Origin: an uncultured SAR86 cluster bacterium
GTDB taxonomy: Bacteria > Pseudomonadota > Gammaproteobacteria > Magnimaribacterales > D2472
Assembly: GCA_902586925.1 (NCBI GenBank)
Contig: CACIJE010000003.1
Coordinates: 1-62,551, forward strand
Direction of reading: 5' to 3'
DNA length: 62,551 nucleotides
The notes beneath the pieces were generated by a model that did no database searches, had not been told where the DNA came from, and saw only the letters and a list, made by a program, of their open reading frames with translations. Positions 5,280 to 62,551 of this stretch are shown piece by piece. A program made the position numbers and the translations under genes. Within the stretch, counting starts at the first letter, position 1; every line of letters begins with the position of its first letter.

Positions 5280-6899
5280 TTAATCTCTTTCTAAATAAAT
5301 AAACTTTGGATGATGGTGATCAAGAATGTGAGGATTAAACCCTTTTACATCTGAATGAAGCTGGTACACCCGAACATAGGTATAAAGAGGAATAATTGGC
5401 ATATTATCTATTAATATTTTTTCTGCCTCGTTAAGTAATTTATATCTTTCAGTTTGATTATTAATTGTGTTCGCCTTTTCAACCAAAGCATCAAAACTCA
5501 TATCTTCCCAACCAGTTTTATTATTTCCTCTGTTCGGCCTCATCAAATCCAAGAAAGTATTTGGATCTTCATAGTCTCCAATCCAACCTGCTCTGGATAT
5601 TTGAAAATCACCAACCATTTCTCTGCTTAAATAAACTTTCCAATCTTGGTTAACAAGTTCTACTTCAATACCAAGATCTTTTTGCCACATTTGTTGAATA
5701 GCTAGTGCAACTTTTCTGTGACCCTCGTTAGTATTAAAAAGAATTTCTAATTTAGGAAATGGATTATCTGATGTAAAACCTGCCTCCTCTAATAGAACTT
5801 TTGCCAATTCTGGATCATATGGGATTTCAGTTGTTGGTTGATAACCATTAGAACCTGGCGGCGTAAATGAATATGCTGGAATTTGACCACATTGAGTTAC
5901 TTTTTCAACCAAAAGTTTTCTATCAATAGAGTATGCTAATGCTTTTCTAACTCGAACATCACTAAGAGCTTCATTTTCTGTATTAATTCTATAAAAATAT
6001 GTTCCCATATATGGATCGATCTTTAAATTAGGATTCTTTTCTTCTATATATATTGGGCATTTTTGAGTTGGCATAGTTGAAGTAAGATGAAGTTGTCCTG
6101 CTCTAAACATCCTATCCTCTGTCATCACGTTAGAAACAGGATAGTAATGAATTTCATTAAGTCGAACCATAGACGCGTCATAGTAAAATGGGTTTTTTTC
6201 AACAACTATTTTATTATTGAGTTCCCAAGTTTTTAGTTGAAAAGGTCCATTACATACAAAATTTCCAGGTCTTGTCCATTCTCCATTTCTATCATCTATC
6301 TCACCATATTTTAAAACTGTTTCTTTATGAACTGGCCACGTGCTGTAATGACTTAAAAGACCTATAAAAAATGGTGTAGGATTTTTTAAATTAACTTTTA
6401 AAGTATGTTTATCGATTGCCTTTACACCGACATTATCAAAATCATCAATCAACCCATTGTGATATTCGTATGCACCTTCAAGGTAATAAAGCATATCTGG
6501 GTACTGTGATCCAAGACTTGCTGTAAGGATTCTTTTCCATGACCAAACAAAATCATCAGCTGTAACAGGGTCACCATTAGACCATTTAGCGTTTTTATTA
6601 AGATTAAATAAATACTCTTTGCCATCATCGCTTACAACCCAGGATTCAGCAGTGCCTGGAATGTATCCATCAGATTGACTAGGATTTGGATTAGGAATTG
6701 TTAAACCCTCACATAAGCTAATTAAGATGTGATGTTCTGGAACACCAGTTACTATATGCGGATCAATACCCTGAGGCTCAGAGCCATTTCCATGATGATA
6801 AATTTGATTTTCTAAACCAAATTCAACTGGCGATATATTTTCTGAACAACCATAAAATAAAACTAAAACTAAAAAAAATGAAATCGATTTTAAATTCAT
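5280..6899 (-). CDS. oppA: Peptide-binding lipoprotein of ABC transporter (OppA type)
   Basis: 539 aa, SBP family 5. The signal peptide ends in a lipobox (LFYGC), so it is probably anchored to the inner membrane. Family signatures include GSEPQGIDPHIVTG near the N-terminus, LNKNAKWSNGDPVTADDFVWSWKR in two adjoining pieces, and the C-terminal NMPIIPLYTY. The GSEPxxxDP opening matches periplasmic oligopeptide-binding proteins of the OppA/MppA group more than dipeptide DppA. It captures peptides for OppBC. It follows ppiD by 11 bases and may be co-transcribed with it. Confidence 0.92.
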   Translation of the reverse strand: MNLKSISFFLVLVLFYGCSENISPVEFGLENQIYHHGNGSEPQGIDPHIVTGVPEHHILISLCEGLTIPNPNPSQSDGYIPGTAESWVVSDDGKEYLFNLNKNAKWSNGDPVTADDFVWSWKRILTASLGSQYPDMLYYLEGAYEYHNGLIDDFDNVGVKAIDKHTLKVNLKNPTPFFIGLLSHYSTWPVHKETVLKYGEIDDRNGEWTRPGNFVCNGPFQLKTWELNNKIVVEKNPFYYDASMVRLNEIHYYPVSNVMTEDRMFRAGQLHLTSTMPTQKCPIYIEEKNPNLKIDPYMGTYFYRINTENEALSDVRVRKALAYSIDRKLLVEKVTQCGQIPAYSFTPPGSNGYQPTTEIPYDPELAKVLLEEAGFTSDNPFPKLEILFNTNEGHRKVALAIQQMWQKDLGIEVELVNQDWKVYLSREMVGDFQISRAGWIGDYEDPNTFLDLMRPNRGNNKTGWEDMSFDALVEKANTINNQTERYKLLNEAEKILIDNMPIIPLYTYVRVYQLHSDVKGFNPHILDHHHPKFIYLERD

Positions 6900-6910
6900 A
6901 TTTGTAACCC

Positions 6911-8785
6911 TTAAAATATTAAATTATTTAAATTTACTCTGGCAGAATCAAAAATATCTTTATTGATTATTTGATTCATCTTTGTATCCATAATTTGCTT
7001 ACTAAAATTGTCGTATTCTTCAAGCATATTATCAATATCAGTCTTTGAAGGCTGATTAAATTTTATTATATCAACAATGTATTTATCACCATTTAGGGAA
7101 TCTTGTGTGATTATACTTTGACTTGAAGAATTAAAAATAACATTTAATACCTCTCGCGGTAGCAAGGATGAATATCTTTTTACATCAACATATGTTTCAT
7201 ATTCAACATAGTCGTAAGCTTTGATAAATTTCATTCTCTCTTCTTCATCCGTGATAGCTTTTATTTCATCTGACATAAGCGAAATTTTTTCAAATGCTTT
7301 TGATTCAGAAAGCATATTTGCAATAGTATCTTCAATTAAATTAAACTCCTGCAAAGAAGGCTCGATAATATCATTAATTGCAAAAACAATAACGCTATCA
7401 TCAACCTCGAGAACTGACAGTTTATTTATCTCAGAATCTGCAGAAAATATATAATTACTAATCTCAGAGGAAGCGATTTCAAAATCAAAATTAGATTGAG
7501 AATATAATTCAGATTTATTAATAGTCTTTGACAAAACTTCAGCAATTTCATCTAAATCAATATTATCTGTAATCATATTTTCAATTTCAGCTAAATCATC
7601 TTGCAAAAGTGCATAAGATTCATTTTGCTTTAATTCACTTATTAATTCTTGTTTGATTTCATCCTCAGAAAGAGGTTCAAGAATATTTTTTTCAGTAATT
7701 TTTAGAATATGGAGTGTATCTTCAAGCTCAATAATTTCAGTAGTTTGATCTAAATTAAGAAATTGAATAGCATCTTTAAATTCTAATGGGAAAATTTCCT
7801 CATCAAAATACTCAAGATCGCCACCAATATCTTTAGTAACAATATCCTCACTGTAAGCACTAGCCAATTCGATGAAATCTTCACCACTCTCAATTAAATC
7901 TTGAACATTTTTAATTGCGTCATAAGCAGATTCGTTAGAACTATAGTTATTTTTATCAATCATAATATGAGATATTCTAATTTCATCTGAATTTTTGAAT
8001 GTATCTAAGTAACTTTGATATCCATTCTCTAAGTATGATTCAGGAATTTGAATAAGCTCCTCATAATCAGATCGATTAAGTAAGATATATTTAAAGCTTT
8101 TTAATTCCTCACTAAAAAATAATATCTCATTCTCTTTGTAATAATTTAATAATTCGTCATTTGAATTAACAATTTCAGATTTCATTTTGTTGAAATCTAT
8201 TTTTATAAAATCTATATCAGTAGATTTTTCTAATAAGCTTGCCATTTCAAATAACTCACTATCTGTTACAAAATTTACAGCTCCAAATGAAGATCTATAG
8301 AGATCTGATGCTATCAAGTTCGTCATAACATCAATATAGCTTTCTTTTGTAAATCCATTAGAGTTAACTTGAGCCTCAAATACATCCTCGCTAAATAATC
8401 CATCTATTTGAAATATTTGGCTTTTAATTATATTTTTTTTTGTTTCGTTTATAGTTGATTGATTTATGAATCCTAGAGATTTAGCTCCAGACAATAAAAC
8501 TTTTTGAATAATGAGTTCTTGTTTGATAGCTTCAGATTTAATCTGTTCATCTAACAAATCAAAGTCAAAATCTTCTCCGTATAAACTTTGAAATTTTCTT
8601 ACAGTTACATCTGATGCCATTTGAATATCAATCTCAGTTACATTTTCACCATTAATTTTTCCAAAGGAGTCGTTGAATACTGTACCAAGAGAAGATGTAC
8701 CCAAAAAAACAAAAGGAAGTGCGCAAAACAAAACTACTATTAATAACCTTGGGCCAGTTAAAAAATTTCTGAGAGAATCCATCAT
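6911..8785 (-). CDS. ppiD: Membrane-anchored periplasmic chaperone / peptidyl-prolyl isomerase (PpiD-like)
   Basis: 624 aa. The N-terminus carries one membrane helix (LLIVVLFCALPFVFLGT), so the bulk is periplasmic. A SurA_N-like chaperone region covers roughly residues 30-200. One parvulin domain follows at about 265-370, starting IRISHIMIDKNN and including GGDLEYFDEEIF. The C-terminal 250 residues are divergent. PpiD sits at the SecYEG exit and helps fold emerging outer-membrane proteins. Its place downstream of hupB matches the lon-hupB-ppiD order of Gammaproteobacteria. A TATAAT hexamer lies only about 8 bases before the ATG, suggesting a very short leader after the hupB terminator. Confidence 0.88.
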   Translation of the reverse strand: MMDSLRNFLTGPRLLIVVLFCALPFVFLGTSSLGTVFNDSFGKINGENVTEIDIQMASDVTVRKFQSLYGEDFDFDLLDEQIKSEAIKQELIIQKVLLSGAKSLGFINQSTINETKKNIIKSQIFQIDGLFSEDVFEAQVNSNGFTKESYIDVMTNLIASDLYRSSFGAVNFVTDSELFEMASLLEKSTDIDFIKIDFNKMKSEIVNSNDELLNYYKENEILFFSEELKSFKYILLNRSDYEELIQIPESYLENGYQSYLDTFKNSDEIRISHIMIDKNNYSSNESAYDAIKNVQDLIESGEDFIELASAYSEDIVTKDIGGDLEYFDEEIFPLEFKDAIQFLNLDQTTEIIELEDTLHILKITEKNILEPLSEDEIKQELISELKQNESYALLQDDLAEIENMITDNIDLDEIAEVLSKTINKSELYSQSNFDFEIASSEISNYIFSADSEINKLSVLEVDDSVIVFAINDIIEPSLQEFNLIEDTIANMLSESKAFEKISLMSDEIKAITDEEERMKFIKAYDYVEYETYVDVKRYSSLLPREVLNVIFNSSSQSIITQDSLNGDKYIVDIIKFNQPSKTDIDNMLEEYDNFSKQIMDTKMNQIINKDIFDSARVNLNNLIF

Positions 8786-8811
8786 GATGGCGATATTATA
8801 GAATAAAAAAA

Positions 8812-38145: not shown

Positions 38146-39231
38146 ATGGATAACTTTATTAAATTAGTTACTGAAGTCTGGAACAGTGGGTTCTTGGGCA
38201 TTGATCTTGGCTCAATAATTTCATCGTTAATAGTTATATTGATAGCATTTCTATTTAGAGGTTTTATTATCTCAATAATTTTAAATGCGCTTAGCAGATT
38301 GGCTGAAAGCACAGAATCGAAAATTGATGATGAAATTCTTAATGCTTTAAGAAGGCCTATTGGTTTAATTCCAATTACAATTGCTTTATATATCTGCACA
38401 TTGATTCTTCCCCTTTCAGGTTTGATAGGAGATATTGCAACAAATATTGTAAAGGCATTTGTAATATTTACGATTTTTAGTGCTCTTGCAAATAGTGTAA
38501 AGCCAATATTTGAAGCTTTATCAACAAGTTCGTGGCTTACAGCTTCAATGCAGATGTGGCTTGAAAGAGCGTCTAAATTTATCGTTTGGGTAATAGGAGT
38601 TGCTATTATCTTAGATATTTTTGGAATTCAGATTGGTCCGTTGGTAGCAGGGTTAGGATTGTTTTCAGTAGCAGTTGCACTTGGAGCTCAAGATTTCTTT
38701 AAAAACTTAATATCAGGAATATTAATAATTGGTGAGCATAGGTTTCAGCCAGGGGATAGAATTGAAGTAAGTGGACAATTGCATGGGATAGTTGAAAGTA
38801 TTGGATTTAGATCTACGGTAATAAGAACTTTTGACACTGCTCCGATGGTTATACCGAATAAAGACTTATCCGATGTGAAAGTTATCAACCATGGTGAAAT
38901 GATTAATAGAAGAATTAATTGGAAAATTAATTTAATCTATTCAACTAGTGTTGAACAACTTGAGGCAATAAGAAATGAAGTAAAAGAGTACATAATATCT
39001 AGTAAGGACTTTTCAACTGAAGGTGATCTTGATCCAGTTGTAAGAGTCGTTGAACTTGGTGGAAGCTCAATTGATCTATTAGTTGTTGCCTATGCAGATC
39101 CTATGGGATTTGCTGCATTTAATAAGGTAAAAGAAAATTTAATTTTTAATATTATGAAAATTGTTAAGAATAATAAATCTGAATTTGCATACCCATCAAC
39201 TTCTTTGTATGTTGAATCAATGCCAAAATAA
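38146..39231 (+). CDS. mscS: Small-conductance mechanosensitive channel, MscS family
   Basis: 361 aa. Several N-terminal membrane helices lead to the pore helix GLGLFSVAVALGAQDFFKNL, the Gly/Ala-rich TM3 of MscS. The beta domain follows (RFQPGDRIEVSGQLHGIVESIGFRSTVIR and VIPNKDLSDVKVINHG), then the alpha-beta C-terminal domain. It opens on membrane tension to release solutes in hypo-osmotic shock. The slightly longer N-terminus resembles MscS relatives such as YbdG-like forms. It is followed 12 bases later by the SLC13-type transporter. Confidence 0.9.
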   Translation: MDNFIKLVTEVWNSGFLGIDLGSIISSLIVILIAFLFRGFIISIILNALSRLAESTESKIDDEILNALRRPIGLIPITIALYICTLILPLSGLIGDIATNIVKAFVIFTIFSALANSVKPIFEALSTSSWLTASMQMWLERASKFIVWVIGVAIILDIFGIQIGPLVAGLGLFSVAVALGAQDFFKNLISGILIIGEHRFQPGDRIEVSGQLHGIVESIGFRSTVIRTFDTAPMVIPNKDLSDVKVINHGEMINRRINWKINLIYSTSVEQLEAIRNEVKEYIISSKDFSTEGDLDPVVRVVELGGSSIDLLVVAYADPMGFAAFNKVKENLIFNIMKIVKNNKSEFAYPSTSLYVESMPK

Positions 39232-39243
39232 TATAGATGTATT

Positions 39244-41010
39244 ATGAACGATCAAATAGTTCTTTCAATCACAATAGTTGCCCTCCTTTGTCTTTTCATA
39301 TCTGGTAAAATTAGATACGACGCACTTTCAATTGGTGCTCTATTTATTTTAGTTGTTCTAGAAATAATTCCTGCAAATCAAGCATTTTCAGGTTTTGCTC
39401 ATCCAGCAGTAATTACTGTAGCACTTGTTTTGGTTATAAGTCAGGGTCTGAGTAATTCTGGTATCGCTGGCCTAGTGGGTAAGATAATAGGTGGAAAAGA
39501 ATTCTCAGAAGTTCAATTTATGATTTTCTTGTTGCTTATTGCGGCTGTTCTGTCCTCATTTATAAATAACATTGGCGCATTAGCTATTCTTTTACCAATA
39601 ACGCTTAACATATGTCAGAAAATGGAATGGCATCCGTCTAAGTTTTTAATGCCCTTAGCTTTCGCATGTATTTTGGGTGGAATGAATACTGCAATTGGTA
39701 CACCGCCAAATATTATAATTTCTGAATATAAAGCGACTATTTCAGATTCAGGCTTTAGTTTTTTTGATTTCTCTTATGTTGGACTTGTAATAACAGTTGT
39801 CTGTATTTTGTTTATTGCTTTTATAGGTAATAAGTTAATTTTTTTAAGGAAGGAGATTCCTTCAAATGAACATCTTATTGATCTTAAGGGATACTTATTT
39901 GAAGTCCAAGTAAATAATGATAGCTCATCAATTGGCATGACTTTGTATGCATTTAAGCAGAGAGCCGGTGAAGATACAGAAATACTTGGAATTGTCTCTG
40001 AAAGTGGTTCTATAAAAAAGGTACAAAATAATATGAGGATTAAGGCTGGACAAATCCTTGTAATAAAAACTCCACCCGATGATTTAGGAAACATTTTAAG
40101 TATTTTTGACTTCTCAATTCCTGAAGAACTTCATTCATTTAACGAAGATGACCTTGAAGAAATCGAAGTTATGATTACTCCTGGTTCAAGATTAATTGGT
40201 AGAAAATATGATTTCTTTTTAAAACTAGCATTTGAAGAATTAAATCTGTTAGGTTTATGGAGAAAAGGCTCTAAATATAGAACAAGACTTACTAGGGAAA
40301 AGTTTAGAGCTGGTGATGTTTTGCTTTTAGGTGTGAGAGATCTTGCTGAAGAAGATGTATCTAACAAAATTAAACATCTAGGCTTAATGCCAATAAGACA
40401 AAGGGAACTTCAAACAATACCTAGTAGAAGTAGGCTTATTAAAGGATTGATATTTTTTGGATTATCAATTTTTTTAGTTTCATTTAATTATTTAAGCGCA
40501 GCAGTAGCATTTCTGCTATGTGTTCTTGCTTTTGCGAGAATTAGGATAATTGATAATGATTTTTATAGGAAGATTGATTGGCCGATCATAGTTATGTTGG
40601 CTGCGATGATTCCAATAGGAACTGCAATTCAAACAACTGGTCTTAGTAGCCTAATAGCAATCTCAATCTCTGAATATGCATCTAGCTTAAGCTTGTTTTG
40701 GATATTATTAATTATTTTAATAATTACTATGATTACCACTGACATAATAAATAATGCTGCTACTGCAGTGATCATGGCGCCAATTTCAGCAGGAATTGCA
40801 TTTGAGCTTGGTTATGCAGTTGAACCCTTTTTGATGGTTGTTGCTGTTGGAGCAAGTTGTGCCTTCTTAACCCCTATTGGACACCAATGTAATACAGTTG
40901 TAATGGGGCCTGGTAACTATAAATTTACAGATTATTGGAGGATGGGATTACCTATGGATATCTTAATTATTATTGCCTCTATTCCGATGATACTCTTTGT
41001 CTGGACTTAA
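39244..41010 (+). CDS. SLC13/ArsB-superfamily permease with TrkA-C domains
   Basis: 588 aa. About ten membrane helices split by a central cytoplasmic region (about residues 210-390) that looks like two RCK_C/TrkA-C domains (MTLYAFKQRAGEDTEILGI and MITPGSRLIGRK). The SLC13 signatures NNIGALAILLP and GTPPNIIIS are present in the first half, and NNAATAVIMAPIS with GHQCNTVVMGPG in the second. Relatives transport sulfate, dicarboxylates or cysteine with sodium. The ion specificity cannot be told. Its stop overlaps the next ATG as TAATG. Confidence 0.87.
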   Translation: MNDQIVLSITIVALLCLFISGKIRYDALSIGALFILVVLEIIPANQAFSGFAHPAVITVALVLVISQGLSNSGIAGLVGKIIGGKEFSEVQFMIFLLLIAAVLSSFINNIGALAILLPITLNICQKMEWHPSKFLMPLAFACILGGMNTAIGTPPNIIISEYKATISDSGFSFFDFSYVGLVITVVCILFIAFIGNKLIFLRKEIPSNEHLIDLKGYLFEVQVNNDSSSIGMTLYAFKQRAGEDTEILGIVSESGSIKKVQNNMRIKAGQILVIKTPPDDLGNILSIFDFSIPEELHSFNEDDLEEIEVMITPGSRLIGRKYDFFLKLAFEELNLLGLWRKGSKYRTRLTREKFRAGDVLLLGVRDLAEEDVSNKIKHLGLMPIRQRELQTIPSRSRLIKGLIFFGLSIFLVSFNYLSAAVAFLLCVLAFARIRIIDNDFYRKIDWPIIVMLAAMIPIGTAIQTTGLSSLIAISISEYASSLSLFWILLIILIITMITTDIINNAATAVIMAPISAGIAFELGYAVEPFLMVVAVGASCAFLTPIGHQCNTVVMGPGNYKFTDYWRMGLPMDILIIIASIPMILFVWT

Positions 41011-41216
41011 TGAACAATAGTTATAAAAGAATAAATATAGAAACTGGAAAGCCATTTGAGCCTGGTTTTGAGGATGAAAATGGAAGATTCTTTTTAAGAT
41101 ACCTTAGCAAACATGGTAATGATGGCTACCTATTAGAAGAATGGAAAAAGGATCTTGAAAGCTTTATGATAAAAGCAAAAGAATTAAATATTAATTTCGA
41201 CTTAAATCAGCAATAG
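41010..41216 (+). CDS. Small conserved-looking hypothetical protein
   Basis: 68 aa, starting with an ATG that shares the TAATG overlap with the permease stop, which strongly suggests translational coupling. It is soluble and charged, beginning MNNSYKRINIETGKPFEPGF and ending in a predicted helix (LLEEWKKDLESFMIKAKEL). No family recognised. The tail overlaps the convergent serine hydrolase gene by 26 bases. The codon use and reading-frame integrity look genuine. Confidence 0.6.
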   Translation: MNNSYKRINIETGKPFEPGFEDENGRFFLRYLSKHGNDGYLLEEWKKDLESFMIKAKELNINFDLNQQ

Positions 41217-42372
41217 ATTCAATAACTTCGGGATATTTAATATAGAACTCATAAGATTCTCCATCCTCATTTGTGTAAGGAGTTATTACATCAGTTCCAG
41301 CACTAATAGAGCCGTTATCTATCAATTTTCTTCCCATATTAATAGCATTTTCTATTCCAGCCCATTTTAAATATCTCATCACCCCCCATTTTTGAGTAGA
41401 GCCAGAATCTTGCTGTGAGTATTTGGATATTCTAGTAACCACTACATCATTTTCTCTATCTACAAATGTGTATTGTCCAAATCTTCCACTTGTATTAAAA
41501 ATTTTTGATTCGTCATCATATTTTGATATCCACCAATGAAGTGAATAATATCTTTTATAGTCAGTAAATCTACTTGGAGTTTCCCAGACAATTTTAAATG
41601 TTTCATCAATGAATTCTTTTGGGATTATTTGTTCTTCTCCCCATAATCCATTTCTTGAAAATAATAATCCTATTTTAGAATAATCCCTTGCAGACATATC
41701 AACACAACAGTAAGTCATAACATTACCTTTCTCATCTTTCCATAACTTATAGTCATTTATGCCAAGTGGCTCTAGGATTCTCTCTTCAAAAAGAACATCT
41801 GCTTTTTTACCAGTAGCCTGAAGTAAAATTTCTCCTAAAATCATTGAATTAACATTGTTGTATTCAAACTTTTCACCTGGATTTTTTTCTAAATTAACTT
41901 TTTTTGCATATTTAAGATGATCTACCTGAAAGAACATTTTTTCGTGTTCATGGCTTGGAAAATCTAGGCCACTAGACATATTTAATAAATCTCTAATAGT
42001 TATTTCTGATCTTTTATCATTATAGTATTCGAGATAATTTGAAACTTTTTCATCTAGGCTTTCAATTTCTCCAAGATTAATAGAAATTCCTATTAAAGCA
42101 GCATAATAGCTTTTTGCCATTGACCAAGACGTACCATGTGAATTTTTATCATAACCTTCTGAGTATCTTTCAGAAATAATTTTTCCATTTTTTACAATAA
42201 CAACAGCTTGTGTGGCATCATCTGAAAATGATAAATCCATTAATTTATCAACTTTTTCTTGATTAATACCCTCTATTTCTGGATTTGATATATTCCAACT
42301 GTCTGATTCAGGATAATATTGAGTAAAAGAAAATAATGAAAAAAATAATAAAAAATAGATCTTCGCGTACAT
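41191..42372 (-). CDS. Serine hydrolase, beta-lactamase / 6-aminohexanoate-hydrolase-like
   Basis: 393 aa with a signal peptide (to about residue 21). The class C penicillin-binding fold has SxxK in TSWSMAKSYYAALIG, the Tyr motif as KFEYNNVNSMILGE (YxN) and a late FGQYTFVDRENDVVV strand where the KTG-equivalent lies. These proteins are periplasmic esterases, amidases or peptidases rather than antibiotic-resistance enzymes. The closest pattern is the 6-aminohexanoate-dimer hydrolase/EstB group. The natural substrate is unknown. It is divergent from the pseudoazurin gene. Confidence 0.83.
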   Translation of the reverse strand: MYAKIYFLLFFSLFSFTQYYPESDSWNISNPEIEGINQEKVDKLMDLSFSDDATQAVVIVKNGKIISERYSEGYDKNSHGTSWSMAKSYYAALIGISINLGEIESLDEKVSNYLEYYNDKRSEITIRDLLNMSSGLDFPSHEHEKMFFQVDHLKYAKKVNLEKNPGEKFEYNNVNSMILGEILLQATGKKADVLFEERILEPLGINDYKLWKDEKGNVMTYCCVDMSARDYSKIGLLFSRNGLWGEEQIIPKEFIDETFKIVWETPSRFTDYKRYYSLHWWISKYDDESKIFNTSGRFGQYTFVDRENDVVVTRISKYSQQDSGSTQKWGVMRYLKWAGIENAINMGRKLIDNGSISAGTDVITPYTNEDGESYEFYIKYPEVIESIADLSRN

Positions 42373-52643: not shown

Positions 52644-55007
52644 TTAAAAATCAAATGTATATTTCAGACTAATAGTTCTAGGTGGAATCCATTGCATCCA
52701 GTTTCTTGGTCTCCACGACGTATCATCTACTGCATAAATATATGCCTCAGTTCTCTCGTCTGTAAGATTATCTATTGAAATTTGTAGCTTAGAATTATCG
52801 CTAAGATCAAGACCAAGATTGAAATTTAATTTAGTATAATCTGGAGAGCTTGAGGCAGGATTTTCTGCAAAAGTATTAAAACTATCTCCGTAGTAGTTTA
52901 CATCTAACCTCGCATAGGATGGATATGAAAGAATTGTTGTGTCATAAACCAATCCTAAGTTCCATTGACTTTCGACTGTATTAGGAAGCCTATCTCCAGC
53001 TGATGCACCTAATGAAGTGATATCAATTGATGTTTCAGCAGTCATAGAGCTTCCTGCAAAATCAACAGATAACTCATCATTAATTGCATAAGTGAAATCA
53101 ACCTCCCAGCCAGAGGTCTCCGCTTTACCACCGTTAAAATTATATCTCCAACCACAACCTGGTGTTACTTGAATAATTATCCCATCCCAATCAACATCAA
53201 AATATGTAACATTGGCAGTATAATTTTCGCCTCTTGCCTTAACTCCAAATTCTGTAGTCTCGGCTTCATCTGAATTAAATCTTCTAGAAAAGTTTTCTTG
53301 TGCAGCTTCATCACTACTGCAAAAAGGTGGAAGTGGAGCCTGATTACCACCAGGTCTATATCCTGCTGCCTGTGTTGTATATAAAGTTAAGTCTTCATTT
53401 ACCTTATAGCTCACTGCATATTTCATCCTCGTGTCTGATTCTGAACCAGCTAAAACGGCGCAATCTGTTCCCGCTGGATCATTGCCAACACAACCAGTGC
53501 TATCCATGAAAAAGATTCCATACTGAAATGTTTTTGATCTATCTTCAATTTCATAATCTCTAATACCAAATGTAAGTGTTAACTTTTCACTTACGTTAAA
53601 GTCAAATTGACCATAAAATGAGTTCTCTTCTTGCTCGTTGTACTCAGTATAGGATCCGTAATAAAAATATGGGTAGCCCATATGTCCTTCACAGAAAGGA
53701 GGACAATAAATTGTTGCATCATATTCACCAGGATTTAAACCAGCTGCATAAAGCATTACATATTCTAGCCAACTCTGGTCCACCGCATATTGAGTTTGCG
53801 ATACTGAATTAGGTTCTTCGTTGAACTCATAATGATAATAACCAACAGTCCACTCAAATTTTCCTGGTTTTGAGATGAATCTTAGTTCAGTTGTTTCCTC
53901 ATAATATTTGTCACCATCTACGATAAGTGGTGCAGGAACGTAATCATCCATATCAATTCTGGCCCAATCAGTAACTGAATCATCAGTTACTGTTCTATCA
54001 GAAATAATTAAGTTTGCATCGAAAGCACCAAAATCATATTTAATGTTTGCTACAAGAGTTTTTCTAGTGATATCCTCAGATTCATCTGCTGCTAATGCGT
54101 GTGCAAATCTTGGATCGTAATTTGTAAGAACACCATCTACACCTTCACTTGATGCATATGTTGAGATTGCACTAAGACGTGAGCATGTTGGATCACCATC
54201 AAAATTGTAAAACCAACTAGTTGCTGGAGGACATCCCTCGACATAGACATCTGCACTTCCTGGTTTACTTTGACCTGGCTCTAAAATACCAAATGCTTTG
54301 TTATTGAATTCAATGTAACGTATGCTTCCTGTTAAATTGCCACCATTATTAAATCCTAAGGTCATCATCAATTGAGAATCATCTTCTTCTCCAACAGTAT
54401 TACCTGTTTGAATATTCTTATAAATGCCTGGAGAAACCAATTGAGAGTAAACAGTTCTAAGTGCAAGACTATCCGACAAAGATAGGTTGTACATCATTTC
54501 AAGACTTTTTTCTTGATCTTTTGCCTTTACTTTATCGCCTCGACCAATTCTAATTTTCCCATAAGACGCACTTGTGTCTGGTTTATTAGTAACATATCTT
54601 ATAGTACCACCGATAGCATTTGATCCATATAGTGTGCCTTGTGGTCCTCTCAAAACCTCAATACGTTCAACATCAAATAAACCCATCAATGAACCACTTA
54701 TCTCATCAATATAAGTTGAAGATGTCCCAGAAGAACGTTGTGAAGTAGATGTGTTTAAACCTCTAAAAGTATAATAGTTAGAGCCTCCAGGAGTTGAGAC
54801 GCCTGCTATAGATCTTAAGTAATCCTCAGGATTTATAATACCTCTCTCATCTAAAGCAGATTCAGTAATTACAGATATATTCATTGGAATTTCCTGTAAT
54901 GTCTCAGCTTTTTTATTGGCTGTAACAATAACTTCTTCAACTTCCTGACCAATTAAAAAAATTGGAACCAGCAGAAAAAAAATATACAAATTATATGTGT
55001 TTTTCAT
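52644..55007 (-). CDS. TonB-dependent outer-membrane receptor
   Basis: 787 aa. A signal peptide ends near FLIGQ. The TonB box EEVIVTA follows immediately. The plug domain includes IPMNISVITESALDERG and IEVLRGPQGTLYGSNAIGGTIRYV. A 22-strand beta barrel follows, ending in aromatic TISLKYTFDF. No SusD partner is adjacent. Its size and plug resemble receptors for plant or algal sugars and other organics in marine Gammaproteobacteria. The linked GH16 enzyme suggests oligoglucan uptake (inference). The leader contains an intrinsic terminator directly before the SD (see 55023-55069). Confidence 0.92.
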   Translation of the reverse strand: MKNTYNLYIFFLLVPIFLIGQEVEEVIVTANKKAETLQEIPMNISVITESALDERGIINPEDYLRSIAGVSTPGGSNYYTFRGLNTSTSQRSSGTSSTYIDEISGSLMGLFDVERIEVLRGPQGTLYGSNAIGGTIRYVTNKPDTSASYGKIRIGRGDKVKAKDQEKSLEMMYNLSLSDSLALRTVYSQLVSPGIYKNIQTGNTVGEEDDSQLMMTLGFNNGGNLTGSIRYIEFNNKAFGILEPGQSKPGSADVYVEGCPPATSWFYNFDGDPTCSRLSAISTYASSEGVDGVLTNYDPRFAHALAADESEDITRKTLVANIKYDFGAFDANLIISDRTVTDDSVTDWARIDMDDYVPAPLIVDGDKYYEETTELRFISKPGKFEWTVGYYHYEFNEEPNSVSQTQYAVDQSWLEYVMLYAAGLNPGEYDATIYCPPFCEGHMGYPYFYYGSYTEYNEQEENSFYGQFDFNVSEKLTLTFGIRDYEIEDRSKTFQYGIFFMDSTGCVGNDPAGTDCAVLAGSESDTRMKYAVSYKVNEDLTLYTTQAAGYRPGGNQAPLPPFCSSDEAAQENFSRRFNSDEAETTEFGVKARGENYTANVTYFDVDWDGIIIQVTPGCGWRYNFNGGKAETSGWEVDFTYAINDELSVDFAGSSMTAETSIDITSLGASAGDRLPNTVESQWNLGLVYDTTILSYPSYARLDVNYYGDSFNTFAENPASSSPDYTKLNFNLGLDLSDNSKLQISIDNLTDERTEAYIYAVDDTSWRPRNWMQWIPPRTISLKYTFDF

Positions 55008-55022
55008 TATTATTCTCCTCTC

Positions 55023-55069
55023 AAAAAAAAACCCAGTCTATGCTGGGTTTACTAAATAAAATACCCAGC
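55023..55069 (-). promoter_or_regulatory. Candidate transcription attenuator in the TonB receptor leader
   Basis: Read on the minus strand: GCTGGGT (55069-55063), then AAACCCAGC (55050-55042), then CTGGGTTT (55036-55029) followed by a U run to 55023. The middle segment can pair with either flank. The later pairing is a strong intrinsic terminator, 8-bp stem plus U run, ending just before the SD GAGGAG (55020-55015); the earlier one (7 bp) would prevent it. Transcripts of the receptor from any upstream promoter must pass this point. Confidence 0.6.
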
Positions 55070-55182
55070 TATTATTTATCTGCTCCCCGTATTTTATGTA
55101 AGTTTAGTACTAACACTCTTTAAGTATATCCTCACAATATTAAATAACAACCATTAAGGTAAAATTAAATTTTAAATATTTG

Positions 55183-55267
55183 TGGTAGGGATGGAGGGAG
55201 TCGAACCCCCACACCTTGCGGCACTTGGTTCTAAGCCAAGCGTGTCTACCAATTCCACCACATCCCC
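55183..55267 (-). tRNA. tRNA-Leu(TAG)
   Basis: 85 nt with encoded CCA and a long variable arm (TGCCGCAAGGTG region), as in class II tRNAs. Acceptor GGGGATG pairs with CATCCCT. The anticodon loop CTTAGAA gives TAG. It lies 175 bases upstream of the TonB receptor gene on the same strand. Confidence 0.96.
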
Positions 55268-55315
55268 AAAAAATCCAATTATATAGATATATTTATGTAT
55301 ATAGTAAAATATAAT

Positions 55316-55717
55316 TTATAAATCGTATGATATTTGATTTCTTCTCTTTCTTCTTTCTAATAGCAGGATAAAAAGAGTTCCTAGGCCTATGAAGAAAATA
55401 ATTAAAGATCTTTGATTAATGCCCTCATAAAGAAAACCAGAAAATTTTCCGACTAACATAAAAGCAATCAAGTAAATCAAAACTGTTCCAAGTTGAACTC
55501 TTGATGAAGAAAAAATAAATCTAAGTAAAATATAGCCTCCTGCAGCAAATAAACCAGAAATTGTTCTAATAAATGTTATTAAGTTTTTCTGGTCACTTTC
55601 TACATAAAATGTAAGTAAATAACTATTAACATCTGGAGAAAACATCATATAAAAACCACAAACCATTGAAAAAAGTGCAACAGAAATCAAATAGCCTTTT
55701 ATTAAAATTTTCGTCAT
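55316..55717 (-). CDS. DUF4345-like small membrane protein
   Basis: 133 aa from the ATG at 55717 (MTKILIKGYLISVALFS); an upstream start would add a non-matching segment lying inside the preceding gene. Four membrane helices and a basic C-terminus (ERRKRRNQ) are seen. The layout resembles the DUF4345-like protein at 49311, including the helix-two FSPDVNSYLL region and the IRTISGLFAAGGYILLRF segment. Function unknown. The start overlaps the stop of the 70-aa gene upstream by 4 bases. Confidence 0.6.
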   Translation of the reverse strand: MTKILIKGYLISVALFSMVCGFYMMFSPDVNSYLLTFYVESDQKNLITFIRTISGLFAAGGYILLRFIFSSSRVQLGTVLIYLIAFMLVGKFSGFLYEGINQRSLIIFFIGLGTLFILLLERRKRRNQISYDL

Positions 55718-55926
55718 AAAATTCCTAACATATACAAGGCTAGCAAAAATGACAATGTACCAAGCGCAATCCAAATATACATTTCATTATAATTGTTAAA
55801 TTTATAGGAATTTATTGCAAGAAAACAACAGAATATTGGGGCTACAACGAGAATTCCATAACCAATCAAAATTGCCAATGGGATAAATGCTAAAAACAAA
55901 AAGAGCTGTAAAATAAATTTGTTCAT
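55714..55926 (-). CDS. Small two- or three-helix membrane protein
   Basis: 70 aa, almost entirely hydrophobic: helices at about 4-20, 22-38 and 50-68, with polar KFNNYNEMYIW between. No family recognised. It overlaps the DUF4345-like gene by 4 bases (ATGA) and lies 18 bases after the coiled-coil membrane protein, so the three are probably one transcript. The overlap and intact frame support a real gene. Confidence 0.55.
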   Translation of the reverse strand: MNKFILQLFLFLAFIPLAILIGYGILVVAPIFCCFLAINSYKFNNYNEMYIWIALGTLSFLLALYMLGIL

Positions 55927-55944
55927 ATTTTTAGAATCAATGCA

Positions 55945-56586
55945 TTACTCATTTTCTACCATGTTATCATTTATTGAATTTTGAACGTTTGATATTTGTG
56001 TTTGAATTTCTAATATTACTTGGTTCAGTTGATTTTTATAACTATTTAAAGCTTGAACAGAATCATCTAGTAACATTTGCTGAGTATTAATATTGCTTAA
56101 GCTTAACTTAAGTGCGCCTAAATCTTGAGATGATAGGCCCAATTCATCAATTTTAGTTATATTTTTGTTTATATTTTTTTGCAGGAGTGTCAATTTATTC
56201 TGATTCATATTTATATCGTTTTTAATAACTAATAAAAGACTTTCAATTTCATCTGTTTGGTCTGAGAGTTTCTGAATATCTACTTTGTTACGTTTATTAC
56301 TTAGATCCCATAATTTTCTTATTTCCTTATCTAAGAACTGTATCGAAGATGAAATATCTGTCATAGAATCACTGTTAATTTCGTCTGCAATATTTATTTG
56401 TTCTTCAACTAAAGTTAATCTTTCGTCAACAGAAATCAGTGAGGATTTATTATTCTCAGATTCAAAAGTTTGCCATAATGCAAGAAATAGAATGCTCATA
56501 AATACTGCAACATAAATAAAACCAACAAAAAGACCTCCTCTTTCAGATCTACTCAAATAAGATGGACTCTTCTTTTCAATTTTCAT
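55945..56586 (-). CDS. Membrane-anchored coiled-coil protein of unknown function
   Basis: 213 aa. A basic N-terminus (SRSERGG) is followed by one membrane helix (FVGFIYVAVFMSILFLALW, about residues 22-42). The remaining 170 residues are predicted periplasmic and helical, rich in Ile/Leu/Asn/Gln with heptad spacing, so a long coiled coil. No catalytic motif is seen. The single anchor plus coiled coil is reminiscent of cell-envelope or septum spacer proteins, but nothing specific can be claimed. First gene of a three-gene membrane run. Confidence 0.65.
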   Translation of the reverse strand: MKIEKKSPSYLSRSERGGLFVGFIYVAVFMSILFLALWQTFESENNKSSLISVDERLTLVEEQINIADEINSDSMTDISSSIQFLDKEIRKLWDLSNKRNKVDIQKLSDQTDEIESLLLVIKNDINMNQNKLTLLQKNINKNITKIDELGLSSQDLGALKLSLSNINTQQMLLDDSVQALNSYKNQLNQVILEIQTQISNVQNSINDNMVENE

Positions 56587-56664
56587 TTTATTTCATGGTA
56601 ATTAAAATTCATCAGCATTTAGCATATAATGAATGTCTATTTTACCTTAACTAATACTTTTTTT

Positions 56665-57777
56665 ATGAATTTAGATTTTTCAAATGATCAAAAGTTTCTT
56701 CAAGAAGAGGCTAGAAAATTTCTTGAAAAAGAAGGCGCACTGTTGAGAAACAGAAATGTTTTAGAGAATAAATCATATATTGATATAGAATTATGGAAAA
56801 AAATTGTTGAACTTGGATGGACTGGTATCAGAATCCCTGAAGAGTATGATGGCCTAGGATTAGGTCATCTTGAATTATGTGTAATTGCTGAAGAACTTGG
56901 AAGATTTTTAGCACCCGTGCCCTACTCATCCTCTGTGTATTTATTTACTGAATCAATAATAAACTATGGCAATGATCAAATTAAAAAAGAATTTCTACCT
57001 AAATTAGTGAGCGGAGATATTGTTGGAACACTTGCTGTGACAGAAGCACTACATGCGCCATCTGCCTCAAATATAAATGTAACATATGAAAGTGGGAGGC
57101 TTAATGGTAAAAAGATTGCTGTACCTGATGCAAATGTATCAACTCATGCTTTGGTGGTTGCAAAATCATCTAAAGGCATAAGCCTTCAAATTGTTGATTT
57201 ATCATCTAACGGAGTTTCAATTGAGCATCAAGAGACAATTGATGAGAGTAGAGGTCATTTTTCAATTACATTTGATAATGTAGAAGCAGAGTTAATTGGT
57301 GATGAAGTTTCTGGTTGGGAAATATACGAATCAATAATTAATCAAGCTGCAGTTCTTTTTAGCTATGAACAGATAGGTGGTTCACAAGCCTCCCTTGATA
57401 TGGCTGTAAATTATGCTAAAGAAAGATATGCCTTTGGAAGACCAATTGGTTCTTATCAAGCAATAAAACATAAATTGGCTGACATGTATATTGCTCTTAC
57501 TTTAGCAAAATCCAATTGTTACTATGCAGCATGGGCATTATCTACTGATGCTTCAGATTTGCCCTCAGCATCTGCAACTGCAAGAGTAAGCGCTACAAAA
57601 GCATATCAGCTATGTTCCAAAGAAAATATTCAAACACATGGTGGTAATGGTTTTACATGGGAGTATGATTGCCATATGTTTTACAGAAGATCTAAGTTGT
57701 TATCATTAAATATAGGTTCGCTAAATAATTGGAAAGAAAAATTGGTTACAAGCTTAGAACAATCAAATATTAATTAG
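56665..57777 (+). CDS. Acyl-CoA dehydrogenase, first member of an adjacent pair
   Basis: 370 aa from the ATG at 56665 (MNLDFSNDQKFLQEEARKF); an ATG at 56629 adds 12 non-family residues. The N-terminal helical domain, a TEALHAPSASN loop where FAD-type enzymes have T-E-P-x-A-G-S-D, and the C-terminal FGRPIGSYQAIKHKLADM and IQTHGGNGFTWEYD are seen. The altered TEA-type loop and short C-terminus suggest a divergent, perhaps non-catalytic, subunit. It is 8 bases before a second, more canonical enzyme, the arrangement of heteromeric (alpha2beta2) dehydrogenases. Confidence 0.87.
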   Translation: MNLDFSNDQKFLQEEARKFLEKEGALLRNRNVLENKSYIDIELWKKIVELGWTGIRIPEEYDGLGLGHLELCVIAEELGRFLAPVPYSSSVYLFTESIINYGNDQIKKEFLPKLVSGDIVGTLAVTEALHAPSASNINVTYESGRLNGKKIAVPDANVSTHALVVAKSSKGISLQIVDLSSNGVSIEHQETIDESRGHFSITFDNVEAELIGDEVSGWEIYESIINQAAVLFSYEQIGGSQASLDMAVNYAKERYAFGRPIGSYQAIKHKLADMYIALTLAKSNCYYAAWALSTDASDLPSASATARVSATKAYQLCSKENIQTHGGNGFTWEYDCHMFYRRSKLLSLNIGSLNNWKEKLVTSLEQSNIN

Positions 57778-57785
57778 GAAAAATT

Positions 57786-59006
57786 ATGGATTTTAAAGAT
57801 ACTAAAGACGAAGCTAAATTTAGAAATAAATGTCTAGATTGGCTTGAAAAAAACGCTTCATATAAAGACGAATCAACTCCTCAAAATGATGATTTTGCTA
57901 ATAAAGACAAAATAGCGGCTGCAAAAGCCTGGCAAAAAAAGAAATATGATGCAGGATGGGCAATGCTTCACTGGCCAAAGGAATATGGTGGAATTGGAGC
58001 TAGTTCTATGGAAAGAATAATTTGGGCTAATGAAGAGTCAAAATTTGATGTACCAAAGGGTATCTTTGAAATTGGGCTTGGTATGTGCGGTCCTGTAATG
58101 ATGGAATATGCCACAGAGGAACAAAAAGGAAGATATTTGCCTGCAATGGCTGAAGGAAAAGAAATTTGGTGCCAACTTTTTTCAGAACCGTCAGCTGGAT
58201 CTGACGTAGCCGGTTTAAAAAGTAAGGCAATTCAAGATGGTGACAAATGGATTATAAATGGTCAAAAAGTATGGACATCCGGAGCGCACTTTTCTGACTT
58301 TGGAATACTTGTCGTTAGACATGATCCAAATGAAGCAAAACATAAAGGTATGACTTTCTTTTTTGTTGATATGAAATCGCCAGGAATTGAAGTAAAACCA
58401 ATTAAACAAATAACTGGAGGATCTAGTTTTAATGAGGTTTATTTTACGGATGTTGAGATACCAGATTCACAACGCTTAGGAGATATTGGTGATGGTTGGA
58501 AGGTTGCTATTACAACTTTAATGAATGAAAGATTGGCAGTTGGTGATGCAGATGGAGCTGATGTAGAGGATGCATTTAGGTGGGCTAAAACCCAAGATAG
58601 TCAAGGTGAACCACTTCTAAATAATGGAGCAGTGAGAGATTCAATTGCTGATTGGTATTGTCAAAAAAGTGGTTTAAAAAATACAAAACTTAGAACTATG
58701 TCTGCACTTTCCAGAGGAGATACTCCTGGTCCAGAGGCTTCAATTACTAAAATTGTTAGCGCTGGAAAGCTTCAAGATATTGGAAACTTTGGCATTGATT
58801 CGTTGGACATGGCAGGAATGTTAAGAGCTGATAGCATGGACATTAAAGGTTTTCAAAATGCATGGTTGGGTGCACCAGGACTAAGAATTGCTGGTGGTAC
58901 TGATGAAATTCTAAGAAATATTATTGCTGAGAGAGTTTTAGGTCTCCCACAAGATCCTAGGGCTGATAAAGGCATACCATTTAAAGACATACCCACAGGA
59001 AACTAA
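57786..59006 (+). CDS. Acyl-CoA dehydrogenase, second member of an adjacent pair
   Basis: 406 aa. The FAD/substrate loop QLFSEPSAGSDVAGLKSKA is canonical, followed by WIINGQKVWTSGAH. The C-terminus has the APGLRIAGGTDEILRNIIAERVLGLP motif, in which the position of the MCAD-type catalytic Glu is not Glu, as in enzymes that use another Glu. It follows the 370-aa dehydrogenase by 8 bases. Such pairs form mixed tetramers in degradation of sterol side chains and other branched acyl-CoAs. The substrate here is unknown. Confidence 0.9.
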   Translation: MDFKDTKDEAKFRNKCLDWLEKNASYKDESTPQNDDFANKDKIAAAKAWQKKKYDAGWAMLHWPKEYGGIGASSMERIIWANEESKFDVPKGIFEIGLGMCGPVMMEYATEEQKGRYLPAMAEGKEIWCQLFSEPSAGSDVAGLKSKAIQDGDKWIINGQKVWTSGAHFSDFGILVVRHDPNEAKHKGMTFFFVDMKSPGIEVKPIKQITGGSSFNEVYFTDVEIPDSQRLGDIGDGWKVAITTLMNERLAVGDADGADVEDAFRWAKTQDSQGEPLLNNGAVRDSIADWYCQKSGLKNTKLRTMSALSRGDTPGPEASITKIVSAGKLQDIGNFGIDSLDMAGMLRADSMDIKGFQNAWLGAPGLRIAGGTDEILRNIIAERVLGLPQDPRADKGIPFKDIPTGN

Positions 59007-59016
59007 TAGTATAAGT

Positions 59017-59529
59017 TTATAAAAAGCTCACCATAATCTCATCAACCAACATATTTGATGCGTCGTCATAAGATATTGACCTATTCGAACCTTGTCTCCA
59101 TATGGTCACAACTGTCCAAAGTGTCTTTTCATCGTCAAGATCCTTTAGATTAACTCTCAGAATATTTTGGGTCACATTATAAACGTTATCTCTTAAACGA
59201 TAATAATCATAGTAATATCTCGAGTAGTGAAAATTCAAATTATCTGATTCAACAGTTTCCTTTGTTGAAAAGTTTATATCAAAAACAATATTTGAATCTT
59301 TATTGTATATAAGACCCCTATCCTCAATAGCGGATTTAAGATTTTCTTTAAACCTCTCAAGAGCTATAGGATTAACCTCTGCACTCAAATTTGTAGTATT
59401 TATCTTTATATTAAATTGGTTATAATTACTCAAACTAAAAGTATCAATTGAATCAATTTTAAGATTTGATTGAGTAGTGGAACATCCAACTAAAATTACA
59501 AAAGTTAAAAGTGTTATTATTTTTTTCAT
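59017..59529 (-). CDS. DUF4136-like lipoprotein
   Basis: 170 aa. The signal peptide ends in the lipobox ILVGCS. The mature part starts with a beta strand and has a conserved-looking KENLKSAIEDRGLIYNKDSNIVF segment, in two adjoining parts, as in DUF4136 lipoproteins (an alpha/beta fold with a paired-helix region and late WRQGSNRS). Function unknown. It is divergent from the M16C gene with 20 bases between starts. Confidence 0.75.
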   Translation of the reverse strand: MKKIITLLTFVILVGCSTTQSNLKIDSIDTFSLSNYNQFNIKINTTNLSAEVNPIALERFKENLKSAIEDRGLIYNKDSNIVFDINFSTKETVESDNLNFHYSRYYYDYYRLRDNVYNVTQNILRVNLKDLDDEKTLWTVVTIWRQGSNRSISYDDASNMLVDEIMVSFL

Positions 59530-59549
59530 AGATTGTTTATTATTAGATT

Positions 59550-61175
59550 ATGTTTAATTTAGAAGATCAAAAATATATAAAATTATTAGACCTTAATGCA
59601 CAAATATATACCGAATCTGAATTCAATTGCAAGCATATTCATTTAGATTCTTCTAGTGAAGAAAAAGTCTTTATGGTGGCCTTTAGAACCATACCTGAAG
59701 ATTCTACTGGTGTGGCTCATATTCTTGAACATACAGCATTGTGTGGCTCAAAAAAATATCCTGTTAGAGATCCTTTTTTTATGATGATAAGAAGGTCATT
59801 GAATACTTTTATGAATGCTTTCACTTCAAGTGATTGGACGGCATATCCTTTTGCAACTCAAAATGACAAAGATTTTAATAATTTATTAAGTGTATATTTA
59901 GATTCCTCATTTTTTCCAAATTTAAATGAATTAGACTTTCTTCAAGAGGGTCACAGACTAGAATTTTCTGAGAAAGATAATTCTGATAGTGATTTAGAAA
60001 TCAAAGGAGTTGTTTACAATGAAATGAAAGGTGCGATGAGCTCAATAACTAGTCAGCTATGGGCTGGATTATCCAGGCACCTATATGAAACATCAACTTA
60101 TAAATTTAATAGTGGTGGAAATCCTGAAGACATATTAGATTTAACACATGACTATTTGGTAAATTTTCATAAAAAACATTACCACCCTTCAAATGCAACT
60201 TTTTTTACATTTGGAAAATTAAATCCTGAAGATATTCAAAATTATATACAAGAAAATGTATTAATAAATTTTGAACCTTCGAAAGAGATAATTAATGTAA
60301 GAAATGAAAACAGAATATCACAACCTAAAGTGGTTACTGAATACTATAATCCCATGCCAAATGATGAAAACAATCATCATGTGGTCTTGAGCTGGCTTTT
60401 AGGAGAAAGTCACGATCCTGTTGAACTTTTAGAATCATATTTAATGTCTAATATTCTCTTGGATAATTCTGCTTCTCCACTAAGAAAAGCTTTAGAAAAT
60501 ACCAAATTAGGAAAATCATTATCTCCATTAACTGGTTTGGAGGCTGATCATAAAGAGCTTGTTTTTGCTGCAGGACTTGAAGGTGTAGATTCTGATAAAC
60601 AATTAGAAGTTGAACAATTAATATTGGATTGCTTAAAAGATGTTGTTTTAAATGGAATTTCAGAAGACCTTATTAATTCATCTCTACATCAATTAGAAAT
60701 CAAACAAAGAGAGATTTCTGGATCAGGCCTTCCATATGTTTTGATGTCATTTGTTTACCAAGAATCAAGCTTTCAAGCAGATGCAAGACCTGAAAGAGAA
60801 AAAGTTCTTGGTTTTATACCTTGGTTTAGATCTTCTTCAGCTGTTGGATATTCTCAAGCACTAACAAAAACTTGGGAAGATTATAAGGACGAAACTGGAA
60901 ACACACGAGCCAGTAGAAAAAACTTTCAAGATTCCGCTGATTTTATTGGTTGGTATGCTAGCAAGGGTTATTATCAGGGATTTGAAAAAACAGATGCAAG
61001 GTCACTTTATCTTGCTTATCATGAGGGTTACACAGGCTTCAAAAAAAAGACATATAGAAAGAAACAGTGGTTAATAAAAGTTGCTGATAGAGTTCAAGAA
61101 AGATCTACAAAATATCAGAAGCAATATTGGGGTTGCTCTAAAGAACTTAAAAGAAAAAGGTTTTTCTTTTTTTAA
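59550..61175 (+). pseudogene. Chimeric ORF: N-terminal part of an M16C (PreP-like) peptidase joined to C-terminal part of an SLT transglycosylase
   Basis: 541 aa in one open frame, but of two unrelated families. Residues 1 to about 395 are the N-terminal M16C region: zinc motif H57-I-L-E-H61, distal Glu158 in VVYNEMKGAM, YLVNFHKKHYHPSNATFF, and LHQLEIKQREISGSGLPY. The M16C sequence then stops abruptly. Residues about 396-541 are the C-terminal part of a Slt-type protein, with catalytic E405 in YQESSFQADARP, GFIPW, AVGYSQ, DFIGWY and LAYHEG. The normal second half of the peptidase is on the other strand (61176-62551). The product is unlikely to be a working fusion. Confidence 0.8.
60732..60749. 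other. Junction between the M16C and SLT segments
   Basis: The family identity of the translated sequence switches within residues 395-400 (GLPYVLMS), where both families have a similar short stretch. An inverted repeat AGAAATC / GATTTCT (about 60696-60720) lies just upstream. No transposon or direct-repeat scar is visible. Confidence 0.65.
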
Positions 61176-62551
61176 TCAAATATTTTTGATTTCTAAGCCC
61201 AAATCTGTCATTTCTTCTATGTAGTTTTCGCCTGCAATAACAGATTTTTTTGATTCATTGAACAAATATTTACGTGAAACATTAGTTAAGTCTTTCAAAG
61301 TACATTCTTTAACTTTAGATCTGAAATAAAGCCTTTTTTCTTTATCTTTGTTATCAAGATTATTTGAGAAATCACTCATTGCCTCACCAAAAGGTGATAA
61401 TGGCTTATCAATACTTGATATTATGCCTAAAATTCCTTCATCAAGTTGATCTTGAGAAATATCTTTTAATGACCACGCCCTAGATTTTTTAAAATCATCA
61501 AAAGTATTTCGACATCTTGGATCACGATAGGAGAAAAATTTAAATACTTTGTTATTAGAATCTTGCATAGCACCAGAACCATATGCTCCACCTTTTTCTC
61601 GAATTGCAGTATGAAGATACCCATTTCTCAATACTGCTCCTAAAACACTTAATGCAGCAGCATCATCGTGTAAAAAATCAACTGTAGGAAAAGCTTCTGC
61701 ACAATAACTTACTTGAGCACCTGTGATCCATCCTATAGATTTTTGTTGTATATCAAAATAATCTTGAGTTTCAACAACATCTTTAAATTCATTAAATTCA
61801 AAATTAATGTTTGATTTATTTATGTCTAATGATGAAGCTGTAAAAGAATAAATGGGACTTGAGCTAATCTTATTTTTAATACTATTTAATAATTCAACAT
61901 AACGATTAATTGCTGATGAGGTATCTATACTTTTTGATAGCTGTCCTGTATTGGAAATATAATTTAAACCAGATGTGAAATCATTTGTTGAAGATATATT
62001 ATTAATTTGAGCAGCTGCATTACTCATAGCCAAAATATGACCATTTTGAATAAGCGATTTATCATTATCCGAAGATATAAAATTAAGCATATCCTTAATT
62101 CTATTTTTATCAGAGAAGTTCGCATCCTTAGCTGTATCAATCATAAGCTCTTGCATATTTTTTTCGTTTTTCTCAAGTGATTTCGATGTAATTTTGAGTG
62201 CTAAAGTATGCGCAGACGCATCTTTGTTAGGTATGAGTGAAAAACTTGATGAAATTCCTCCAGTCAATGCCGACTGAATTTTTTGTATTTCTTCATAACT
62301 TTTATTTCCAATTCCAACATCAGTTAATGTGTTAGTAAATAACGATGCAACCTTAAATTCATCCATTGAAAGATTCTTACACGGCAATAATATTGAATGA
62401 TATGTAATTCCATTTGTCCCAACATTGTAAAAATAATTTTTGTTATCATTTTTATATGTTTTTGAGCTTGGATAACTTCTTATTTCTGGAATATCGTCTT
62501 TAGTAACCTTGGGTAATACATCAGGATTATCAACTTTTTCTTGCCTTTGTT
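61176..62551 (-). CDS. M16C (PreP-like) peptidase, C-terminal half, open to window edge
   Basis: The frame is open from the right edge (first full codon at 62549) to the stop at 61176, about 457 residues. It begins inside the family at QRQEKVDNPDVLPKVTKDDI and continues YNVGTNGITYHSILLPCKNL, both typical of the PreP middle. Later segments are ALTGGISSSFSL, TAIREKGGAYGSGAMQ and RDPRCRNTFDDF, with the Arg/Tyr pair that helps substrate binding in M16 C-domains. No ATG suits as a true start, so it is a fragment of a larger gene. It complements the N-terminal part found on the plus strand, less about 115 missing residues. Confidence 0.88.
   Translation of the reverse strand, partial: QRQEKVDNPDVLPKVTKDDIPEIRSYPSSKTYKNDNKNYFYNVGTNGITYHSILLPCKNLSMDEFKVASLFTNTLTDVGIGNKSYEEIQKIQSALTGGISSSFSLIPNKDASAHTLALKITSKSLEKNEKNMQELMIDTAKDANFSDKNRIKDMLNFISSDNDKSLIQNGHILAMSNAAAQINNISSTNDFTSGLNYISNTGQLSKSIDTSSAINRYVELLNSIKNKISSSPIYSFTASSLDINKSNINFEFNEFKDVVETQDYFDIQQKSIGWITGAQVSYCAEAFPTVDFLHDDAAALSVLGAVLRNGYLHTAIREKGGAYGSGAMQDSNNKVFKFFSYRDPRCRNTFDDFKKSRAWSLKDISQDQLDEGILGIISSIDKPLSPFGEAMSDFSNNLDNKDKEKRLYFRSKVKECTLKDLTNVSRKYLFNESKKSVIAGENYIEEMTDLGLEIKNI

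Follow-up and report, generated by a model that had tools for sequence, protein, structure and literature searches.

An inverted PreP–SLT join at the end of a SAR86-type contig that most likely arose during sample preparation or assembly

The right end of the window analysed here, which is the entire 62,551-base contig C3 of a draft genome, raises the question of whether an open reading frame that begins as a peptidase and ends as a transglycosylase encodes a genuine fusion protein, records a real rearrangement, or was created while the sequence was being prepared. The genome comprises 1,182,387 bases in 9 contigs (each at least 2535 bp), is 94.6% complete with 0 contamination, and has SAR86-type gammaproteobacteria as its closest public relatives among the matches listed. 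In our assessment, the join at about position 60735 is an artefact with a probability of roughly 0.8, namely an inverted amplification chimera or, less specifically, a library or assembly misjoin, that was kept as the end of C3.

The initial annotation described the plus-strand frame as PreP-like up to about residue 395 and as the C-terminal part of an SLT transglycosylase thereafter, with the C-terminal half of PreP on the minus strand and the two stop codons abutting at 61175/61176, and this layout is borne out by the open reading frames and by Pfam. The plus-strand frame (59550–61175, 541 aa) meets, stop to stop, a minus-strand frame (61176–62549, 457 aa) that is still open at the window end. 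Codons 1–395 of the former (59550–60734, plus strand) represent the N-terminal part of PreP, an M16C presequence-protease-like peptidase, with matches to Peptidase_M16 (residues 49–132) and Peptidase_M16_C (197–382). These are followed by SLT_4 (396–529) in a segment (60738–61175, plus strand) that supplies the C-terminal 145 residues and the stop codon of the transglycosylase, its N-terminus being missing; the match covers about positions 50–184 of the 184-position profile, so the N-terminal part of the profile is absent. The minus-strand frame matches M16C_assoc, PreP_C, and Peptidase_M16_C and provides the C-terminal 457 residues of PreP plus its stop codon, ending at the contig end. NCBIfam gave no match above its cut-offs. 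The M16, M16_C, M16C_assoc, and PreP_C domains are all present, but they are split over two strands rather than held in one frame, and PreP is a single frame of 945–976 aa in most relatives of the family. PreP-N, PreP-C, and SLT-C have one match each in the genome itself, in which no second copy of either gene was found.

The order of these genes in relatives was surveyed in a set of 60 genomes and in a scan of public genomes, two samples that overlap (the closest relative, G011, is in both). With the present genome counted, SLT was found in 53 of the 60 genomes and the PreP C-terminal part in 38; with it left out, 37 genomes carry PreP, one of which (G002) breaks off at a contig end at this point and lacks an SLT match. 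In all of the other 36, which give both genes, PreP is convergent and neighbouring with SLT (36/36, coordinates compared by eye). The public scan returned at least 73 distinct loci with PreP. Among the matches listed, SLT lies on the opposite strand just past the PreP end in 41/41 loci with SLT, no SLT was found in the available stretch of 32 of the 73, and in 72 of the 73 PreP-N and PreP-C lie in that order on one strand, the exception (L148) having no PreP-C match. The earlier supposition that PreP and SLT faced each other in the ancestor is confirmed at every locus that yielded both genes. Gene order is unchanged even in three drafts in which PreP is interrupted, by an in-frame TGA in G011 (6916–6918 of its locus, L062), by a TAG in G014 (contig C21), and by division into two pieces in G016 (contig C1), these interruptions reflecting either errors in the drafts or genuine decay of a gene that can be dispensed with. 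The PreP C-terminal part had no match in 22 of the 60 genomes, among them every genome of families f2 and f3 (8 each). SLT was found in all four families sampled and the PreP C-terminal part was matched only in f1 and f4; the convergent pair may be lineage-limited.

Locus L062 of G011 served as the reference for the rearrangement. Window positions 54067–60738 are colinear with L062 2–6673 (87% identical), and positions 60728–62551 are the reverse complement of L062 8797–6974 (90% identical), the SLT part corresponding in reverse complement to the stretch of L062 between the SLT stop codon and 8797, and the PreP C-terminal part to that between about 6974 and the PreP stop. A single block of ~2.1 kb (L062 about 6674 to 8797) is flipped, with its last 300 bp missing, in agreement with the original idea that flipping a segment holding both 3′ ends yields this layout. 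Such a block is also what would be expected from a real, very recent ~2.1 kb inversion through short inverted microhomology, private to the cell or its lineage and breaking both genes. The missing middle of PreP, first put at ~115 residues, amounts instead to ~100, i.e., 300 bp in G011 (L062 6674–6973) and 303–307 bp in most public loci.

At the join, the window reads TCCATATG; read in the window direction, so does the SLT site of G011, and the PreP site of G011 reads TCCTTATG. The shared letters lie at 60731–60738, which overlaps the left edge of the range first assigned to the junction (60732–60749). The microhomology is at least 4 bp, common to both G011 sites, and would be 8 bp if the genome's own PreP read CCATATG like that of G008. 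Of random inverted pairs (200–6000 bp apart, within 20 kb of contig C14 of G011), 2.8% match over 4 bp or more and 0.05% over 8 bp or more, which corresponds to chances of about 0.03 for at least 4 bp and 0.0005 for at least 8 bp and speaks for a real inversion as well. Microhomology is also found at real rearrangements, and since amplification and genuine microhomology repair would both show it, it does not separate the two.

The flank that C3 lacks beyond its end (62551) was located on contig C4: positions 38616–41228 (of 41230), at the right end of that contig, match L062 12500–9888, which is the flank beyond SLT. The two contigs therefore face each other at the locus; they are adjacent in G011 and in G016, and the locus also supports a scaffold link from C3 to C4 for this genome. 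Only 2 bp of C4 follow its last match to the flank opposite C3, and C3 runs on for 1.8 kb beyond the junction before it stops. A search of the genome's own assembly did not find the ~1.4 kb between them (~300 bp from the middle of PreP, and ~1.09 kb that holds the N-terminal part of SLT and some of the gene after it), a result that is not absolute because 40 of 156 candidates were scored and two of the nine contigs read only as N. The second, reciprocal junction of a real inversion would lie in precisely this missing stretch, at which both contigs stop, and it is not in the assembly.

Repeats or overlaps sought among the genome's own contig ends and small contigs were only local repeats, in the ends of C1 and C2. 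Among C3 and C4 matches of at least 200 bp, the junction is the only within-contig change of orientation relative to G016 and, where covered, to G011, which covers C3 only from 20051 onward; insertions and deletions are present in this comparison. The four large contigs have seven further ends (the left end of C3 and both ends of C4, C1, and C2, with 6 kb each for C1 and C2), all of which are colinear with at least one relative, without an inverted tail (7/7). For this reason, the notion of a chimera-rich sample gains no support, and the clean ends fit a real inversion.

Two of these ends showed features of their own. On C1 (L068), a tRNA-Asn (GTT) at 5554–5628 stands exactly where colinearity with 5/5 relatives searched stops (5628–5638, 6 kb query), and within the 6 kb taken from this left end the final 362 bases matched no relative searched. 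By eye, the open reading frames beyond the tRNA have the look of a foreign island, presumably encoding a MoxR-like ATPase, a VWA-type protein, a WYL-type regulator, and a peptidase-type repressor. The last 6 kb at the right end of C2 (L151 14001–20000) is 99% identical to G008, compared with 80–84% at three other contig ends, for which possible explanations are a recent transfer event or a mobile stretch common to both genomes.

Neither gene shows signs of decay, which counts against a real inversion. Relative to G011, dN/dS is 0.046 for PreP-N, 0.038 for SLT-C, and 0.096 for PreP-C; relative to G008, the values are 0.062, 0.032, and 0.098, and as synonymous sites are near saturation these ratios are rough. 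Purifying selection on the parts of both genes is apparent in 6/6 comparisons (dN/dS 0.032–0.098), and no internal stops were found in the gene parts. Judging from this coding pattern, PreP and SLT either kept their function until very recently or have it still.

The fusion itself appears confined to this one assembly. A 131-residue probe spanning the junction, searched in 107 genomes of the family, found a full-length match (1–131) only in the genome itself. Among the other 106, 91 matched and 15 were without a match; none of the matches listed spans the junction, each covering one side only (about 1–70 or 63–131), and these extend down to about 75 bits, below the level expected of a spanning match. 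The fusion is likewise absent from the 73 public loci (0/73, among the matches listed).

Because relatives carry both genes adjacent and facing each other, and because the contig breaks exactly there, the fusion is most likely an artefact of preparation or assembly, and the order in the cell is most likely PreP on the plus strand followed by SLT on the minus strand, both intact as in relatives. A real inversion need not coincide with a gap in the assembly, yet contigs stop on either side of this locus; the chance that a large-contig end falls within 1.8 kb of an independent real inversion is ~1% (8 × 1.82 / 1182 kb). The initial annotation left the choice between inversion and chimera open, and the contig break on both sides, the uniqueness of the join, and the intact selection pattern now tilt it towards a chimera. 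The joined points are inverted neighbours ~2.1 kb apart (L062 6673 to 8797), within the 10 kb that separates most joined points of published inverted chimeras.

Isolate codes beginning with AG-, AH-, or AAA, which we take to be single-cell genome codes, occur in 27 of 42 SAR86-type public loci (the 41 with SLT and L078; among the matches listed), and we infer amplification of the sample, and a chimera mechanism, as the source of the join. During amplification, synthesis of a strand would have run across the 3′ half of PreP and on into SLT before the strand was displaced near L062 8797. Its 3′ end, CATATGGA, would have annealed to TCCATATG in the PreP sequence of another displaced strand that lay close by and had the same polarity; extension would then have proceeded to the left, across PreP-N and the genes next to it. 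The end of C3 would then lie approximately where the chimeric amplicon began, and the SLT N-terminal flank would have been left as the end of C4. Against a chimera, the assembly is not visibly chimera-rich, given the seven other large-contig ends, and the contig holds no reverse copy of 59550–60740, the direct sign of a fold-back, stopping ~300 bp short. One SCGC protocol trims 100 bp off contig ends and keeps contigs >2000 bp (PMC5519541), with which the present assembly (9 contigs, at least 2535 bp each) is compatible, and for the GORG workflow a benchmark figure of 1.5 misassemblies per 100 kb is quoted (PMC11247762).

A real inversion is, on balance, unlikely. Loss of PreP might be tolerated, in that the gene may be dispensable in the order (no PreP C-part match in 22/60 genomes, interruptions in the G011, G014, and G016 drafts), but the same event would have broken SLT, whose loss would be unusual because it is found in 53/60 genomes, and no other genome searched carries the inversion. 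If it were nonetheless true, the flip would have knocked out PreP together with an SLT_4 transglycosylase that is widely retained elsewhere, in a streamlined genome of the SAR86 type, and so recently that decay had not begun. A natural, functional in-frame PreP–SLT fusion protein is highly improbable: the frame is indeed open over 541 aa, but an in-frame join is expected in 1/3 of cases by chance, PreP is cut ahead of its second half, SLT_4 is without its first 49 profile positions, and the junction occurs in 1/107 family genomes, its own, and in 0/73 public loci (among the matches listed). A programmed reversible inversion, i.e., a phase-variation or shufflon-like switch swapping the 3′ halves of both genes, has just as little in its favour, for although the segment is bounded by a short inverted match (TCCATATG/CATATGGA), this is just 4–8 bp long and falls within Pro-Tyr codons that are conserved in both proteins, inspection by eye revealed no recombinase-like protein among the open reading frames (80 or 100 aa and longer) of window 39–62.5 kb, and the flipped state occurs in no relative examined. 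Both of these readings were rejected because no other occurrence was found.

Returning to the artefactual join, the frame at 59550–61175 should not be annotated as a fusion, and PreP and SLT are probably split by a misjoin rather than being pseudogenes. The original advice against a fusion annotation therefore stands, as the fusion is in no other searched genome and no separate PreP copy was found in the assembly; the accompanying statement that both genes are disrupted holds for the assembly but probably not for the cell. Annotation is thereby spared a spurious M16C–SLT fusion protein and two spurious pseudogenes. Contig ends, together with the synteny of relatives, can expose inverted joins in drafts of uncultured marine bacteria.

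Compared with known systems, both PreP parts of the window match the PreP/M16C family (Peptidase_M16, Peptidase_M16_C, M16C_assoc, PreP_C), with 94% and 91–92% protein identity to the PreP of the closest relative, but the gene is cut in two on opposite strands and ~100 middle residues are missing. The C-terminal 133 residues of the SLT part match SLT_4 (PF19489) to the profile end and are 96% identical to the relative, whereas about 50 N-terminal profile positions were not found in the assembly. For the join itself, the closest parallel is the inverted chimera of phi29 multiple displacement amplification. In the published single-cell study, 85% of chimeras were inverted (406/475), 83% of inversions (337/406) had join points <10 kb apart, 93.5% of those <10 kb inversions had short complementarity (range 2–21 nt), and about one chimera arose per 22 kb (Lasken and Stockwell, 2007; PMC1855051). 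Those chimeras were shown on reads against a known reference, whereas the window join is known from an assembled contig end alone; it is like them in its inverted second segment, its ~2.1 kb spacing, and its short complementarity.
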